Shown here in pieces: positions 1 through 44,478 of a DNA stretch of 64,000 nt (positions are counted from its first letter, which is position 1; every line of letters starts with the position of its first letter). The notes beneath the pieces are model-generated. The model saw nothing but the letters and a program-made list of their open reading frames with translations, was not told where the DNA came from and ran no database searches. The position numbers were made by a program, and so were the translations under genes. Origin of the DNA: Faecalibacterium langellae (GTDB lineage Bacteria > Bacillota > Clostridia > Oscillospirales > Ruminococcaceae); contig NZ_NMTR01000019.1 in the NCBI RefSeq assembly GCF_002549775.1, forward strand, positions 62,001 to 126,000. The letters are read 5' to 3'.

Positions 1-1103
1 GCGCCGATGTCACCGGCGATGATGCCGTCGGAGTCCACCTGCTTTTTGCCGATGACGGTGAGGGGCTTGGAAATTTTCTCCACGTCGCCGGTGCGGGCGT
101 TGGTGAGGGGCTCACCGGCCGTCACCTTGCCGCTGACCACGCGCAGATAGCTCAGCTTGCCCACAAACGGGTCGGCCACGGTCTTGAAGACGTAGGCGGC
201 GGTGGGTTCGTCCACGGTGCAGTGCAGCTCCACGGGCTCGCCGTTTGCATCCTCGGCCAGGGTGCTGGCTTCGTGCTCCGGGCTGGGCAAGAGCTTATGC
301 ATGTTGAACAGCAGCATATCCAGTGCCTGCTGGTTCACGGCGCTGCCGCAGAACACGGGGGTGATCAGGCCGTCCTTGACGCCCTTGCGCATACCCTCGA
401 CGATCTCCTCGGTGGTGAAGGGCTCACCGCCGAAGAATTTCTCCATCAGCTCATCGTCGGTCTCGGCAATGGCCTCGCTCATGGCCTCGATCAGGCCCTG
501 GAAGCGGTGGCCGATGTCGGGCAGGTCCACCTGGATCTGCTTGCCGCCCTCGTACTTGAAGGCCTTCTGGCTGAACAGGTTGATGTACACGGGGGTGCCG
601 TCGTCGAGCTTTGCCGGCACGACGCAGGGGCAGACGGTGGAGCCGAACTTGATCTTCATGTCCTCGAGGATCTTGAAGTAGTTCGCGTTCTCCAGATCGC
701 ACTTGGAGACAAAGACCATCGTTGCCTTGTTGTTTTTGCGGGCCAGCTGGAAGGCCTTCTCGGCACCCACGGTGACGCCGCTGCGGCCGGACACTACCAC
801 CAGCACGCTCTCGGCGGCGCGGATGCCCTCGTACTCACCGGCCTCGAAGTCGAACAGGCCCGGCGCGTCGATCAGGTTGTACTTGATACCCTCGTACTCC
901 ACGGGCACCACGGATGCCGACAGGCTGGCCTTGCGCTTTGCTTCCTCGGGGTCAAAGTCCGAAATCGTGGTGCCGTCTTCCACACGGCCCATACGCTCGG
1001 CAGCGCCCGAAAAATAGACCAGCGCCTCGGTGAGCGTGGTCTTGCCGCTGCCGGCATGACCGGCAATCAAGATATTGCGGATGTTGTTGCTTGCGTATTT
1101 CAT
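1..1103 (-). CDS. EF-G-like translational GTPase, 5' part (continues past window start)
   Basis: The first 367 residues of an elongation factor G family protein are visible; the 3' part lies outside the window. The P-loop GHAGSGKT is at residues 15-22. The G3 element reads DAPGL (79-83) rather than DTPGH, and the G4 element reads SKCD (133-136) rather than NKxD. This marks a divergent EF-G paralogue rather than the main translocase. Homologous proteins of this class act on the ribosome, but their exact role is poorly defined. The ATG at 1103 has a GAGGGA ribosome site about 7 nt upstream. An extended -10 (TATTAT on the minus strand, 1170-1175) precedes it. Family assignment is firm; the paralogue subtype is inferred from the G motifs. 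Confidence 0.88.
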   Translation of the reverse strand, partial: MKYASNNIRNILIAGHAGSGKTTLTEALVYFSGAAERMGRVEDGTTISDFDPEEAKRKASLSASVVPVEYEGIKYNLIDAPGLFDFEAGEYEGIRAAESVLVVVSGRSGVTVGAEKAFQLARKNNKATMVFVSKCDLENANYFKILEDMKIKFGSTVCPCVVPAKLDDGTPVYINLFSQKAFKYEGGKQIQVDLPDIGHRFQGLIEAMSEAIAETDDELMEKFFGGEPFTTEEIVEGMRKGVKDGLITPVFCGSAVNQQALDMLLFNMHKLLPSPEHEASTLAEDANGEPVELHCTVDEPTAAYVFKTVADPFVGKLSYLRVVSGKVTAGEPLTNARTGDVEKISKPLTVIGKKQVDSDGIIAGDIG

Positions 1104-1169
1104 ATCGGTTTTTCCCTCATTTCCGCCGCACGGAGCATTCTCTCCGCTTTTGTGGCATATTTTACAAAG

Positions 1170-1208
1170 ATAATACCACACTCAAAACGAATTTTAAATA
1201 TTTCGTTT
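1170..1208 (-). promoter_or_regulatory. Promoter of the EF-G-like gene with overlapping palindrome
   Basis: On the minus strand an extended -10 (TGG then TATTAT) lies at 1170-1175. An inverted repeat AAACGAA...TTCGTTT (1185-1208) covers the -35 region, as a repressor operator would. No convincing -35 hexamer is present. Operator function is inferred only from symmetry and position. Confidence 0.35.
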
Positions 1209-1349
1209 GAAAATTCTGGCGAATCGGCCGCCAAACTTCGCGGCGTTGTTTTGTGCAAGTTGACGTGAGGGGCGGCGCAAAACGGTACGGTTGTGCATTG
1301 TGCCGAAAAATGGCGAAAAACTTTGGTGGGGCGAAAAAGTCCGAAACTA

Positions 1350-1387
1350 TTGCAACTGAATAAGGGGGGGGGGGGGGGGGGTATAAT
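1350..1387 (+). promoter_or_regulatory. Putative phase-variable promoter: -35, G18 spacer tract, -10
   Basis: TTGCAA (1350-1355) is followed by 8 nt, then 18 consecutive G residues (1364-1381), then TATAAT (1382-1387). The spacer is therefore 26 nt in this copy. A tract of 9 G would give the optimal 17 nt. No hexamer resembling -35 occurs 16-18 nt from the -10 at the present length. Homopolymers in promoter spacers are a known substrate for slipped-strand switching. This promoter faces the leucine-rich-repeat surface gene. The hexamers and tract are seen; switching is inference. Confidence 0.6.
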
Positions 1388-1449
1388 GAAAATGAGGTGC
1401 CATGCCTTCGGGGGGGCACCCGGACAACAAAGAGAGCGAGGGATAAACA

Positions 1450-1491
1450 ATGAGAAAAAAAAAAACGCGATTTCTCAGTGCAGCGCTTTAG
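1450..1491 (+). other. Signal-peptide start of the LRR protein, ended by an in-frame TAG
   Basis: An ATG at 1450 has GAGGG 7 nt upstream and starts MRKKKTRFLSAAL, a typical Sec signal n-region and early h-region. It is followed by TAG at 1489-1491. The same frame then continues PCMMASTLPVGAFA, which completes a plausible signal peptide with an AFA cleavage site. An A11 run (1455-1465) lies inside the n-region. Adding or removing one A does not restore the reading frame. The TAG is therefore a nonsense mutation, a recoded codon or a sequencing error, with possible reinitiation at 1498. Confidence 0.6.
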
Positions 1492-1497
1492 CCGTGC

Positions 1498-3714
1498 ATG
1501 ATGGCATCCACCCTGCCGGTGGGCGCATTTGCAGCGGCACCGGCTGCGGCCAGCACAGAAAGCGCAGTGAGCACGCAGGCGGAGGAAGAATTTGTACAGC
1601 CGGAGTCTGTTGAAATCAATAGCACAAACTTCCAGGATATGAACTTCCAAAACTATGTCAAACGGTATGACACAGATGGAAATGGCAGCCTCAGCCTGGA
1701 GGAGCGAAATAAGGTAACAACGATCGAATTGCCAGATGGCTTATATTGCCCGACAATGAAGGGTATTGAGTATTTCCCGGAACTAGTCACATTGAAATGC
1801 CCTAATGCCAATGTGCGCTCGCTGGACGTGAGCAAGAACCTGAAACTGGAAACGCTGTGGTGCTTTTGGAACAGCCTGAAGCAGCTTGATGTCAGCAAGA
1901 ATAAGGCATTGAAAGATCTGCGGTGTGGTTACAACTACCTGACGACGTTGAATGTGAGCCAAAATGAAGCACTGGAACATCTGAGCACGAATGATATGCG
2001 AAGTAAGCTGAACTCGCTGGATGTGAGTTACAATAAAGCACTAAAACACTTGGAGTGCATGAAGAATGGTCTTACATCATTGGATGTAAGCAGTAATGAA
2101 GCATTGGAACGGCTGGTTTGTGATAAAAACCCGCTGACTGAGCTGGACGTGAGCAAGAACGATAAGCTGACAAGCCTGGATTGCAAAGGGTGTGGACTGA
2201 CTTCACTAAAGTTTGATTCAGCAGTGAGCTCAATGGATTGCAGTGAAAATCTGCTGACAGAATTGGATGTAAGTCAGAACACAAGGTGGTCTTATCTGAG
2301 GTGCAACGATAATAAACTGACCTCGCTGAGTTTCAATGAAAATGCGGTAATGGCTCCGTATGCTGATATTTATACAAGCAACAACCATTACCAGATTGCC
2401 GTGGATGCAGATGGCATCTACGACCTGAGTCAGCTGCCGGGAAATTTTGATGTCAGCAAGACCAGCGACTGGACGAATGGCGAGCAGAACGGAACTGTGC
2501 TGAGAGTTACCCCGGGCAGCACCACAGTTACTTATAAGTACGATACCGGCAACACCTATACCGGCCGTAAAACCTTTAACCTGGATGTGCATTGGCACAA
2601 CTACCAGTGGGAACATGATGGCACCGAACACTGGAAGGTGTGCACCACCGCAAACTGCCCGGGCCTGACGGCAGACCAGGAGGCCGAAGGCCCCCATATC
2701 TACACCAACGCAAAAGACATTGACTGCAACACCTGCGGCTATGTGCGCCCGATGTACACTGTGACCACCGGTGAGAATGTTACCGCAGAACTTGATGACG
2801 AAGTGCTGAATGCACCTGTAGCCGCAGGCACTGAAGTGGCTTTGATCGCTGGAAACGACCCCGAAGGTAAGGCATTCGCCGGTTGGAAACTGTATAAGGT
2901 GGCCGCAGACGGCACCGAGACCGAAATTACGGATACGACCGGCCTGCTGAGCGGCAGTGTCCGCGTGGTGACCCTGACCGTGCCCGCCTATAACGTGAAG
3001 GCCGTGCCGGACTACGCAGATATTCTGTATGACGTGAACCCCGTGAACTGCACCGTGACCCGGAACAACGTAGAAGTGGACGCCGCCGCAAAGGGCGATG
3101 TGATCACTGCCACCCCGAACGAGCAGGGCCCCGGCAAGAAGTTCACGGGCTGGACGGTGACCAAGACCGTCAACGGCGTGGAAGTGGACATCACCGACGA
3201 GCTGCGCGACGTCAGCCAGAACGGCATGACCATTGCAGAGCTGACCATGCCCGGCGCGAACGTGACCATTGAAGCGCGCTTTGACGATGACTCCGGGCCT
3301 GACCTGGACCAGCCGGTCGTCACCGACGACGGCAGCGGCGATATCGTGGCCGGTGTGGTCATTGGCGGCATCGCGGCTGTGGGTGCTTACGAAGTGGGCA
3401 CCGGCCTGTACCGCATTACCCAGATGGACGACGTGGCCATGCCCACGAACCGCATTGCTCTGGCAAAGCTGATGTGGGAGCGCGCAGGCAAGCCGGAGCC
3501 AGAGAGCACGGCCCTCTACAGCGACATTGACGCTGAGGATACCGATGCTCAGAAGGCCGCCCGCTGGGCCGTGGAGCAGGAACTGCTGAAGGATGACACC
3601 AACGAGGATGAGCAGAAGTTCCACCCGGCTTTCCCCGTGAGCAAACTGCGCGTCTGCCTGACCTGGGAAAAGGCAAAGCAGAAGGGCCTGTTTGACCAGA
3701 ACACCGAAGCATAA
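1498..3714 (+). CDS. Leucine-rich-repeat surface protein, probable start region mutated
   Basis: The open frame from 1498 encodes 738 residues. Residues 1-19 form the end of a signal peptide whose true start is probably 1450, upstream of an in-frame TAG; the ATG at 1498 has no ribosome site. Residues 58-69 (DTDGNGSLSLEE) are an EF-hand-like calcium loop, as is usual ahead of Firmicute LRR blocks. About ten repeats of the type LxxLDVSxNxxL span residues 85-290. Two InlB-B-like repeats (motifs FAGWKLYKV and FTGWTVTKT) follow. A hydrophobic stretch near 614-632 precedes a C-terminal domain of about 100 residues that resembles a cell-wall-binding SLH-like module; that last assignment is weak. The likely role is surface adhesion. 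A terminator follows at 3731. Expression may depend on the G18 promoter. Confidence 0.75.
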   Translation: MMASTLPVGAFAAAPAAASTESAVSTQAEEEFVQPESVEINSTNFQDMNFQNYVKRYDTDGNGSLSLEERNKVTTIELPDGLYCPTMKGIEYFPELVTLKCPNANVRSLDVSKNLKLETLWCFWNSLKQLDVSKNKALKDLRCGYNYLTTLNVSQNEALEHLSTNDMRSKLNSLDVSYNKALKHLECMKNGLTSLDVSSNEALERLVCDKNPLTELDVSKNDKLTSLDCKGCGLTSLKFDSAVSSMDCSENLLTELDVSQNTRWSYLRCNDNKLTSLSFNENAVMAPYADIYTSNNHYQIAVDADGIYDLSQLPGNFDVSKTSDWTNGEQNGTVLRVTPGSTTVTYKYDTGNTYTGRKTFNLDVHWHNYQWEHDGTEHWKVCTTANCPGLTADQEAEGPHIYTNAKDIDCNTCGYVRPMYTVTTGENVTAELDDEVLNAPVAAGTEVALIAGNDPEGKAFAGWKLYKVAADGTETEITDTTGLLSGSVRVVTLTVPAYNVKAVPDYADILYDVNPVNCTVTRNNVEVDAAAKGDVITATPNEQGPGKKFTGWTVTKTVNGVEVDITDELRDVSQNGMTIAELTMPGANVTIEARFDDDSGPDLDQPVVTDDGSGDIVAGVVIGGIAAVGAYEVGTGLYRITQMDDVAMPTNRIALAKLMWERAGKPEPESTALYSDIDAEDTDAQKAARWAVEQELLKDDTNEDEQKFHPAFPVSKLRVCLTWEKAKQKGLFDQNTEA

Positions 3715-3730
3715 CCCCTGAAAACCAACG

Positions 3731-3769
3731 AGAGCCGCCGCACGAGGGACACTGTGCGGCGGCTCTTTT
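3731..3769 (+). terminator. Intrinsic terminator of the LRR gene
   Basis: A 13-bp perfect stem AGAGCCGCCGCAC / GTGCGGCGGCTCT (3731-3743, 3754-3766) with a 10-nt loop is followed by TTT. Confidence 0.85.
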
Positions 3770-3865
3770 CATTGCAAACGGGGCAGGGCTGTGGTATACT
3801 GAAAGCGCCGCGCAGACGGCCGTGTGCCGCCCGCTGAACCATTTCTCGGAAAGAGGTCTCCCGCG

Positions 3866-4345
3866 ATGAAACGTACCGACTATATCAACTGGGATGAATA
3901 TTTTATGGGTATCGCCCTGCTCACGGCCATGCGCTCCAAGGACCCCAACAGCCAGGTGGGCGCGTGCATCGTCAGCCCGGAGAACAAGATCCTCTCCCTG
4001 GGCTACAACGGTATGCCCATTGGCTGCAACGACGACGAGATGCCCTGGGAGCGCGAGGGTGCCCCGCTGGACACCAAGTATATGTACGTCTGCCACGCGG
4101 AGCTCAACGCCATCCTCAACAGCGCCCACAACAACCTGAAAGGCGCCCGGGTGTATGTGACCCTGTTCCCCTGCAACGAGTGCACCAAGGCGATCATCCA
4201 AAGCGGCATCGCCGAGGTGGTGTACTACGGCGACAAGTACCACGACAGCGATTCCAGCGTGGCCGCGCGGTTCATGTTCAAGAAGGCGGGCGTGAAGCTG
4301 ACCGCCTACCGGCCCACCGGACGCCGGGCAGAGCTGGAGCTGTAA
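3866..4345 (+). CDS. dCMP deaminase (ComEB family)
   Basis: This 159-residue zinc-dependent cytidine/deoxycytidylate deaminase converts dCMP to dUMP for dTTP synthesis in the cytoplasm. The catalytic signature is complete: HAE at 77-79 supplies one zinc ligand and the proton shuttle, and PCNEC at 102-106 supplies two cysteine ligands. Length fits the family. The ATG at 3866 is chosen because AAAGAGG sits about 10 nt upstream and the protein then begins [14 protein letters not shown], typical of the family; an upstream in-frame ATG at 3824 lacks a ribosome site. A TATACT -10 lies near 3794. In competent bacteria ComEB is linked to competence operons, but no com genes are adjacent here. Confidence 0.9.
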
Positions 4346-44146: not shown

Positions 44147-44478
44147 ATCATTTGAAGGCGCGGGCAGAATCCCCCCGGCCATTGCGCCGGAGAACGCCCA
44201 CTTCGCATGATTCAAAAAGACGGGATGACGAGAGTCTATATAGCAATTACACTTTTACTACTCTTATTGACCGTTTCACAAGTCTGCGCACCGGGTGCGC
44301 AATTTCATGGTTGTAAAGGAACCAACTTATAAAATTTGAGCTTTCAACTCAATCAATAATGGCAGCTTGCGCCGCCGGTCGGCAGTGGACCCGGCTGTCC
44401 GTATGGCCTTAGCCCCGCTGGGCGGTCCTTGAGTAAATTGCTTTGAAAAGACCCTGTTCTACGTCGCCTCTCAAAATC
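44147..44478 (-). ncRNA. Structured leader RNA of the polyamine operon (candidate riboswitch or ncRNA)
   Basis: Transcription on the minus strand from about 44478 gives about 330 nt before the terminator at 44146. Strong local pairings include CTTTCA/TGAAAG and ACTCAA/TTGAGT (a stem with a 9-nt bulge enclosing a GC-rich core, about 44340-44450), GGACC/GGTCC inside it, and TGCGCACC/GGTGCGCA (44285-44301). None of the T-box, SAM, lysine, TPP, FMN, cobalamin, glycine or guanidine signatures is visible. A stand-alone RNA such as 6S cannot be excluded. Confidence 0.45.

Follow-up and report, generated by a model that had tools for sequence, protein, structure and literature searches.

Homopolymeric G tracts at the promoters of surface-protein genes are already known from two pathogens. 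In Neisseria meningitidis, such a tract occupies the promoter spacer of porA, and the spacing between the -35 and -10 boxes is the proposed means of control (PMC2791445 and PMC7864442, in the sections available to us). Effects of the promoter poly-G have been measured for porA and for tp0126 of Treponema pallidum, whose promoter is best at a 17-nt spacer; the T. pallidum genome carries several poly-G tracts at promoters of surface-protein genes (tp0126, tprL and tprE/G/J), and in tprL the tract covers part of the -10 box (PMC7864442, same sections). Among gut commensals, Bifidobacterium breve UCC2003 switches its pilus by slippage in G-tracts; the tracts demonstrated there lie in coding sequence and act via the reading frame, and the paper mentions further G-tracts in promoter spacers (PMC9187656, in the part available to us). 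The statement of the original prediction that homopolymer promoter switching is known in other bacteria thus has published precedents in porA and tp0126 (PMC7864442, as above).

The window, a 64,000-nt stretch of the Faecalibacterium langellae genome, contains the following features at the locus studied here:

1350..1355, plus strand: -35-like box TTGCAA, with 4/6 identity to TTGACA; an identical box occurs in paralogue L041
1356..1363, plus strand: non-tract part of the spacer, CTGAATAA, 8 nt
1364..1381, plus strand: G18 tract, of uncertain length given short-read behaviour at poly-G
1382..1387, plus strand: -10 box TATAAT, adjoining the G tract without a gap
1434..1443, plus strand: purine-rich ribosome-binding-like sequence before ATG 1450, recognised by eye and common to paralogues L033 and L041
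1450..1491, plus strand: start of a signal-peptide frame, up to an in-frame TAG at 1489-1491, with an A11 run inside it at 1455-1465
1498..3714, plus strand: 738-aa open frame with LRR repeats, an InlB-B-like repeat below cut-off and a C-terminal region

The predicted layout, TTGCAA followed by 8 nt, 18 G and TATAAT with a total spacer of 26 nt, is present exactly at 1350-1387. As in the porA and tp0126 promoters, recognisable -35 and -10 boxes stand on either side of the homopolymer. In contrast to tprL, the tract abuts an intact -10 box, and in contrast to the tracts demonstrated in B. breve, which share with this locus the association of G-tracts with surface structures in a gut commensal, it lies outside the coding sequence. 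The G18 tract is the only run of eight or more G or C in the window, where G10TATAAT matches once as against 0 of 100 dinucleotide-preserving shuffles. A simple plus-strand scan of 1100-4000 for promoter-like sites with spacers of 16-18 nt found none before the gene start. The leader (1396-1420) could form a short hairpin, judged by eye, between 1396-1401 and 1415-1420, and the arms are similar in paralogues L033 and L041.

We interpret the locus as a promoter of sigma-70 type, with a spacer made up mostly of G homopolymer, that may be tuned or phase-varied by slippage through the -35/-10 spacing, in the manner of porA and tp0126; we assign this reading a probability of about 0.72. DNA polymerase slippage would add or remove Gs in the tract, and a changed G count would alter the spacing of the two boxes and hence promoter strength. 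From the arrangement we infer slippage within the strain, an effect of tract length on transcription and a benefit of surface variation. With its spacer of 26 nt, the window locus as assembled is probably off or very weak.

The window promoter is one of seven found in the genome, each leading into a gene for a surface protein of signal-peptide type. Genome-wide, runs of nine or more G gave 13 matches, 12 of them with at least 11 G and one with 10. Under an independent-base model with the G+C content of the window, about 62 runs of 9-10 would be expected and about 6 of 11 or more, so that mid-length runs are scarce and long ones appear to have been kept. Two of the 12 long matches, at the end of contig C1 and the start of contig C11, seem to represent a single locus, which brings the count to 11 loci. 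At seven of these 11, TANAAT (TATAAT, TAAAAT or TAGAAT) directly follows the tract (binomial P about 2.5e-22); with both contig ends counted there are eight such matches, and a 6-G version of the pattern read backwards gave one. The claim that a G tract fills a sigma-70-type promoter spacer is therefore borne out at seven loci of this genome and also in relatives. All seven promoters lead into an ORF with a signal-peptide-like start (in the window copy, with a stop inside), and all seven precede a gene or region matching the window protein, mostly its C-terminal part; at the C76 locus, it is not the first ORF but a second frame behind it that contains the matching part. Conversely, seven of the 12 genes of this genome that match the window protein sit behind a poly-G promoter (14 matches, grouped by hand into 12 genes). 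This recalls the several poly-G promoters of T. pallidum and differs from porA, a single locus with measured length variants, in that seven loci with totals of 16-26 nt are known here from sequence.

The remaining four of the 11 loci stand in other settings. At L037 (G000:C11, near 969803), a signal-peptide gene has a C11 run inside what looks like its promoter spacer, and this run does not abut the -10 box. The ORF at L036 (G000:C11, near 815862, on the minus strand) carries a G11 run in its 5' end, immediately ahead of a signal-peptide-like stretch; a change in length there would shift the frame, making this a possible translational switch. The G14 run of L039 (G000:C33:94852) and the G17 run of L042 (G000:C78:17876) are located just 3' of the stops of genes on the opposite strand, as judged by eye. 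Loss of MutS was considered as an aid to slippage and rejected: two MutS-family matches score over cut-off in the genome, so slippage would proceed without help from the loss of these homologues.

If the C11 case at L037 is included, the eight homopolymer spacers of the genome total 19 nt (2+G17, at a contig end), 20 nt (8+G12), 19 nt (8+G11), 19 nt (8+G11), 16 nt (5+G11), 26 nt (8+G18, the window), 19 nt (8+G11) and 19 nt (3+C11+5, L037). Five of the eight thus reach 19 nt, through differing mixes of tract and other bases, and the window stands at 26 nt against 16-20 nt elsewhere. The non-tract part measures 8 nt in four of the six other G-tract promoters of the genome and 5 and 2 nt in the remaining two. 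With 8 nt held constant, 9 G would give a 17-nt spacer, and the original prediction accordingly placed the ON state near 9 G. This is not supported: tracts of 9 or 10 G are absent among those that abut a -10 box in this genome, and 19 nt is the most frequent total, unlike tp0126, where 17 nt is best (PMC7864442, sections as above). This leaves two readings: a poly-G spacer works best nearer 19 nt, or the majority of these promoters are away from their best length. In the family set, totals were 15-19 nt at 22 of 24 sites. A scan of named genomes gave a 19-nt peak (50 of 123 among the matches listed), which is biased because the scan accepted only tracts of 10 G or more with TTGA at fixed distances. 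Two spacers of 23 and 30 nt occur among loci L060-L078 of a genus genome assembled as one contig (G002).

The layout is present in relatives. In the genus (31 genomes), G7 directly before TANAAT gave 21 matches in seven genomes (control, 0), eight of them in G002 with tracts of G8-G12, and one-contig genomes of the genus carry the layout with 8-12 G. Several of the G002 tracts (L060-L078) precede small lipoprotein-like proteins, a product family unlike that of the window. A scan of 297 family genomes for G9TATAAT gave 33 matches, spread over 15 genomes and including five in the genome studied here, as against 0 for the sequence read backwards, 0 for C9TATAAT and 1 with one base between tract and TATAAT. 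Of the 28 family matches from other genomes, two have no locus in the scan, one of these apparently being L144. A plausibly placed TTG-type -35 box was found at 24 of 26 family and 19 of 20 genus sites, three of these lying outside 15-26 nt. The sample outside the family shows little: among 398 genomes of the phylum, G9TATAAT gave 13 matches in nine genomes, five of them again from the genome studied here, and a -35 box at only two of the eight other sites. A search of named genomes for TTGA N9-14 G10 TATAAT matched at least 117 stretches; by a hand count of titles, the matches listed include about 40 from Bacilli and 19 from Clostridia, as well as Streptobacillus, Streptococcus, Treponema, Saccharibacteria and others. 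A phage-borne origin was considered and rejected, TTGACA N5-12 G8 TATAAT having matched one stretch in a viral collection.

Genes downstream of these promoters favour exported products. By a crude hydrophobicity rule, applied to sites with a downstream ORF found, an N-terminal signal or membrane segment is encoded by 11 of 14 downstream genes in the genus (14 of 20 sites), as against 10 of 46 neighbours, and by 16 of 21 in the family (21 of 26 sites), as against 11 of 40. In the phylum set the figures are 1 of 5 (5 of 8 sites) and 6 of 22. In the named set, among the matches listed, they are 77 of 101 (101 of 124 sites) and 174 of 629, with a Fisher P of 2e-20 that is too small because related copies are not independent. 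Two sites in S. suis and some others in the named scan, among the matches listed, lack a downstream signal segment. The enrichment under this crude rule and the LRR repeats of the window protein thus indicate a product that is exported or on the surface, like those of porA and tp0126.

Tract length is unequal in six of the eight promoter pairs whose flanks are both at least 90% identical, drawn from three independent groups; the pairs are paralogues or come from different species, with one genome per species, partly short-read data and sites with short flanks left out. One group, in a single MAG, comprises four copies with G11, G11, G12 and G13 that have no indels in 70-135 nt downstream and are unrelated further upstream. 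The second group is an orthologue pair with 10 and 9 G, yet both spacers total 16 nt, and the third is an orthologue pair with 11 and 11 G and totals of 19 and 20 nt. L041, the closest paralogue of the window locus, carries 11 G where the window carries 18, with flanks 93% and 89% identical. Tract length is likewise unequal (18 and 11 G) between L258 and L259, a pair that has no -35 box, so a change of length alone is no proof of promoter function.

Such lengths have to be read with the sequencing in mind. G-tracts reportedly cause Illumina reads to fail (PMC9187656, in the part cited above), so the count of 18 G is an assembly value. The assembly itself breaks at a poly-G promoter, L031 and L032 being the ends of contigs C1 and C11. 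On the 3' side of the G tract, 10 substitutions separate these two ends, and each of them copies a neighbouring base; this fits read-phasing error after poly-G and calls for caution about sequence 3' of long G tracts. In the window, the first 115 nt 3' of the tract show eight substitutions relative to both agreeing paralogues and one missing base; six of the eight are neighbour copies, which is suggestive only, since about half or more would be expected by chance.

The same caution bears on the window gene. Its well-placed ATG at 1450 starts the peptide MRKKKTRFLSAAL, which ends inside the signal peptide at the TAG (1489-1491), and the long ORF begins at ATG 1498. Two paralogues are open at the position of this TAG, which reflects either decay or sequencing error. 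The A11 run was considered as a second, frame-shifting switch and rejected, since by hand a gain or loss of one A leaves the signal-peptide start unjoined to the main frame. The predicted LRR surface protein stands as regards its repeats (Pfam LRR_4, 28.2 bits against a cut-off of 27), whereas its signal peptide is broken as assembled. The C-terminal region, which has no Pfam match up to E 1, is common to other surface proteins of the genome and has what we take to be an S-layer-like look.

Several other explanations can be set against spacing control by slippage. One is that the architecture is fixed, the G tract being kept for DNA shape or for contact with sigma factor or a regulator upstream of the -10 box and marking a surface-protein regulon in which length is no switch. 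The strictness of the G-only, abutting rule (backwards 0, C 0, offset 1, as against 33, in the 297 family genomes) speaks for it, all the more as plain spacing control does not require this rule and leaves it unexplained. So do the 19-nt totals of five of the eight spacers, more uniform than free switching would suggest, and the orthologue pairs: the equal totals of 16 nt in one and the 11 and 11 G in the other fit a length that is held and not switched. However, near-identical copies are unequal in length, and the window's 26 nt is far from the other spacers. Long homopolymers have, to our knowledge, proved mutable wherever they have been studied, which also counts against a fixed architecture, and we regard it as unlikely.

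The window locus might alternatively be decaying, its spacer run out to 26 nt (16-20 nt elsewhere) and its signal-peptide stop together indicating the silent remnant of a formerly tuned gene. The TAG is indeed absent from the paralogues, but the 738-aa frame is otherwise open and the differences just 3' of the tract partly, if weakly, resemble read error; this history seems improbable to us. That poly-G artefacts of assembly or sequencing, or chance, produced the pattern is very improbable and, as the whole story, excluded. The documented Illumina failure at G-tracts and a G39 run beside low-complexity sequence at the start of C11 show where such artefacts could enter, but paralogues have 11-12 G at the equivalent place, one-contig genus genomes show the layout with 8-12 G, and the sequence controls are zero or near zero. 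Chance or base composition was likewise rejected on the shuffles, on the backwards, C and offset controls and on the genome census.

Slippage-tuned spacing thus remains our preferred reading, and the poly-G layout before many exported proteins is probably a slip-prone dial of a kind already known from the meningococcus and the syphilis spirochaete. If so, gut Clostridia and their relatives would, like those pathogens, use slippage to diversify their surface, a single assembled genome would misreport which surface proteins are expressed, and a G homopolymer set against a -10 box would serve as a sequence rule for listing candidate variable surface proteins in uncultured commensals. More tentatively, the sites may belong to a widespread, undescribed G-only class (TTGACA, a few nt, about G9-18, abutting TATAAT) that preferentially serves genes for exported proteins, both in many Bacillota of the gut and in some phyla beyond. 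The seven promoters of this genome would then act together as one combinatorial phasome for surface proteins, in which the spacer works near 19 and not 17 nt; a possible reason is that poly-G DNA is packed more compactly than ordinary B-form DNA. A search of openly licensed PMC articles listed, among titles and abstract beginnings, no paper on poly-G promoter spacers in Clostridia, which is weak evidence.

Elsewhere in the window, positions 44379-44428 on the minus strand match the Rfam family of the Streptococcus sRNA SpF59 (65.9 bits against a gathering score of 37.2), an unexpected find in this organism.
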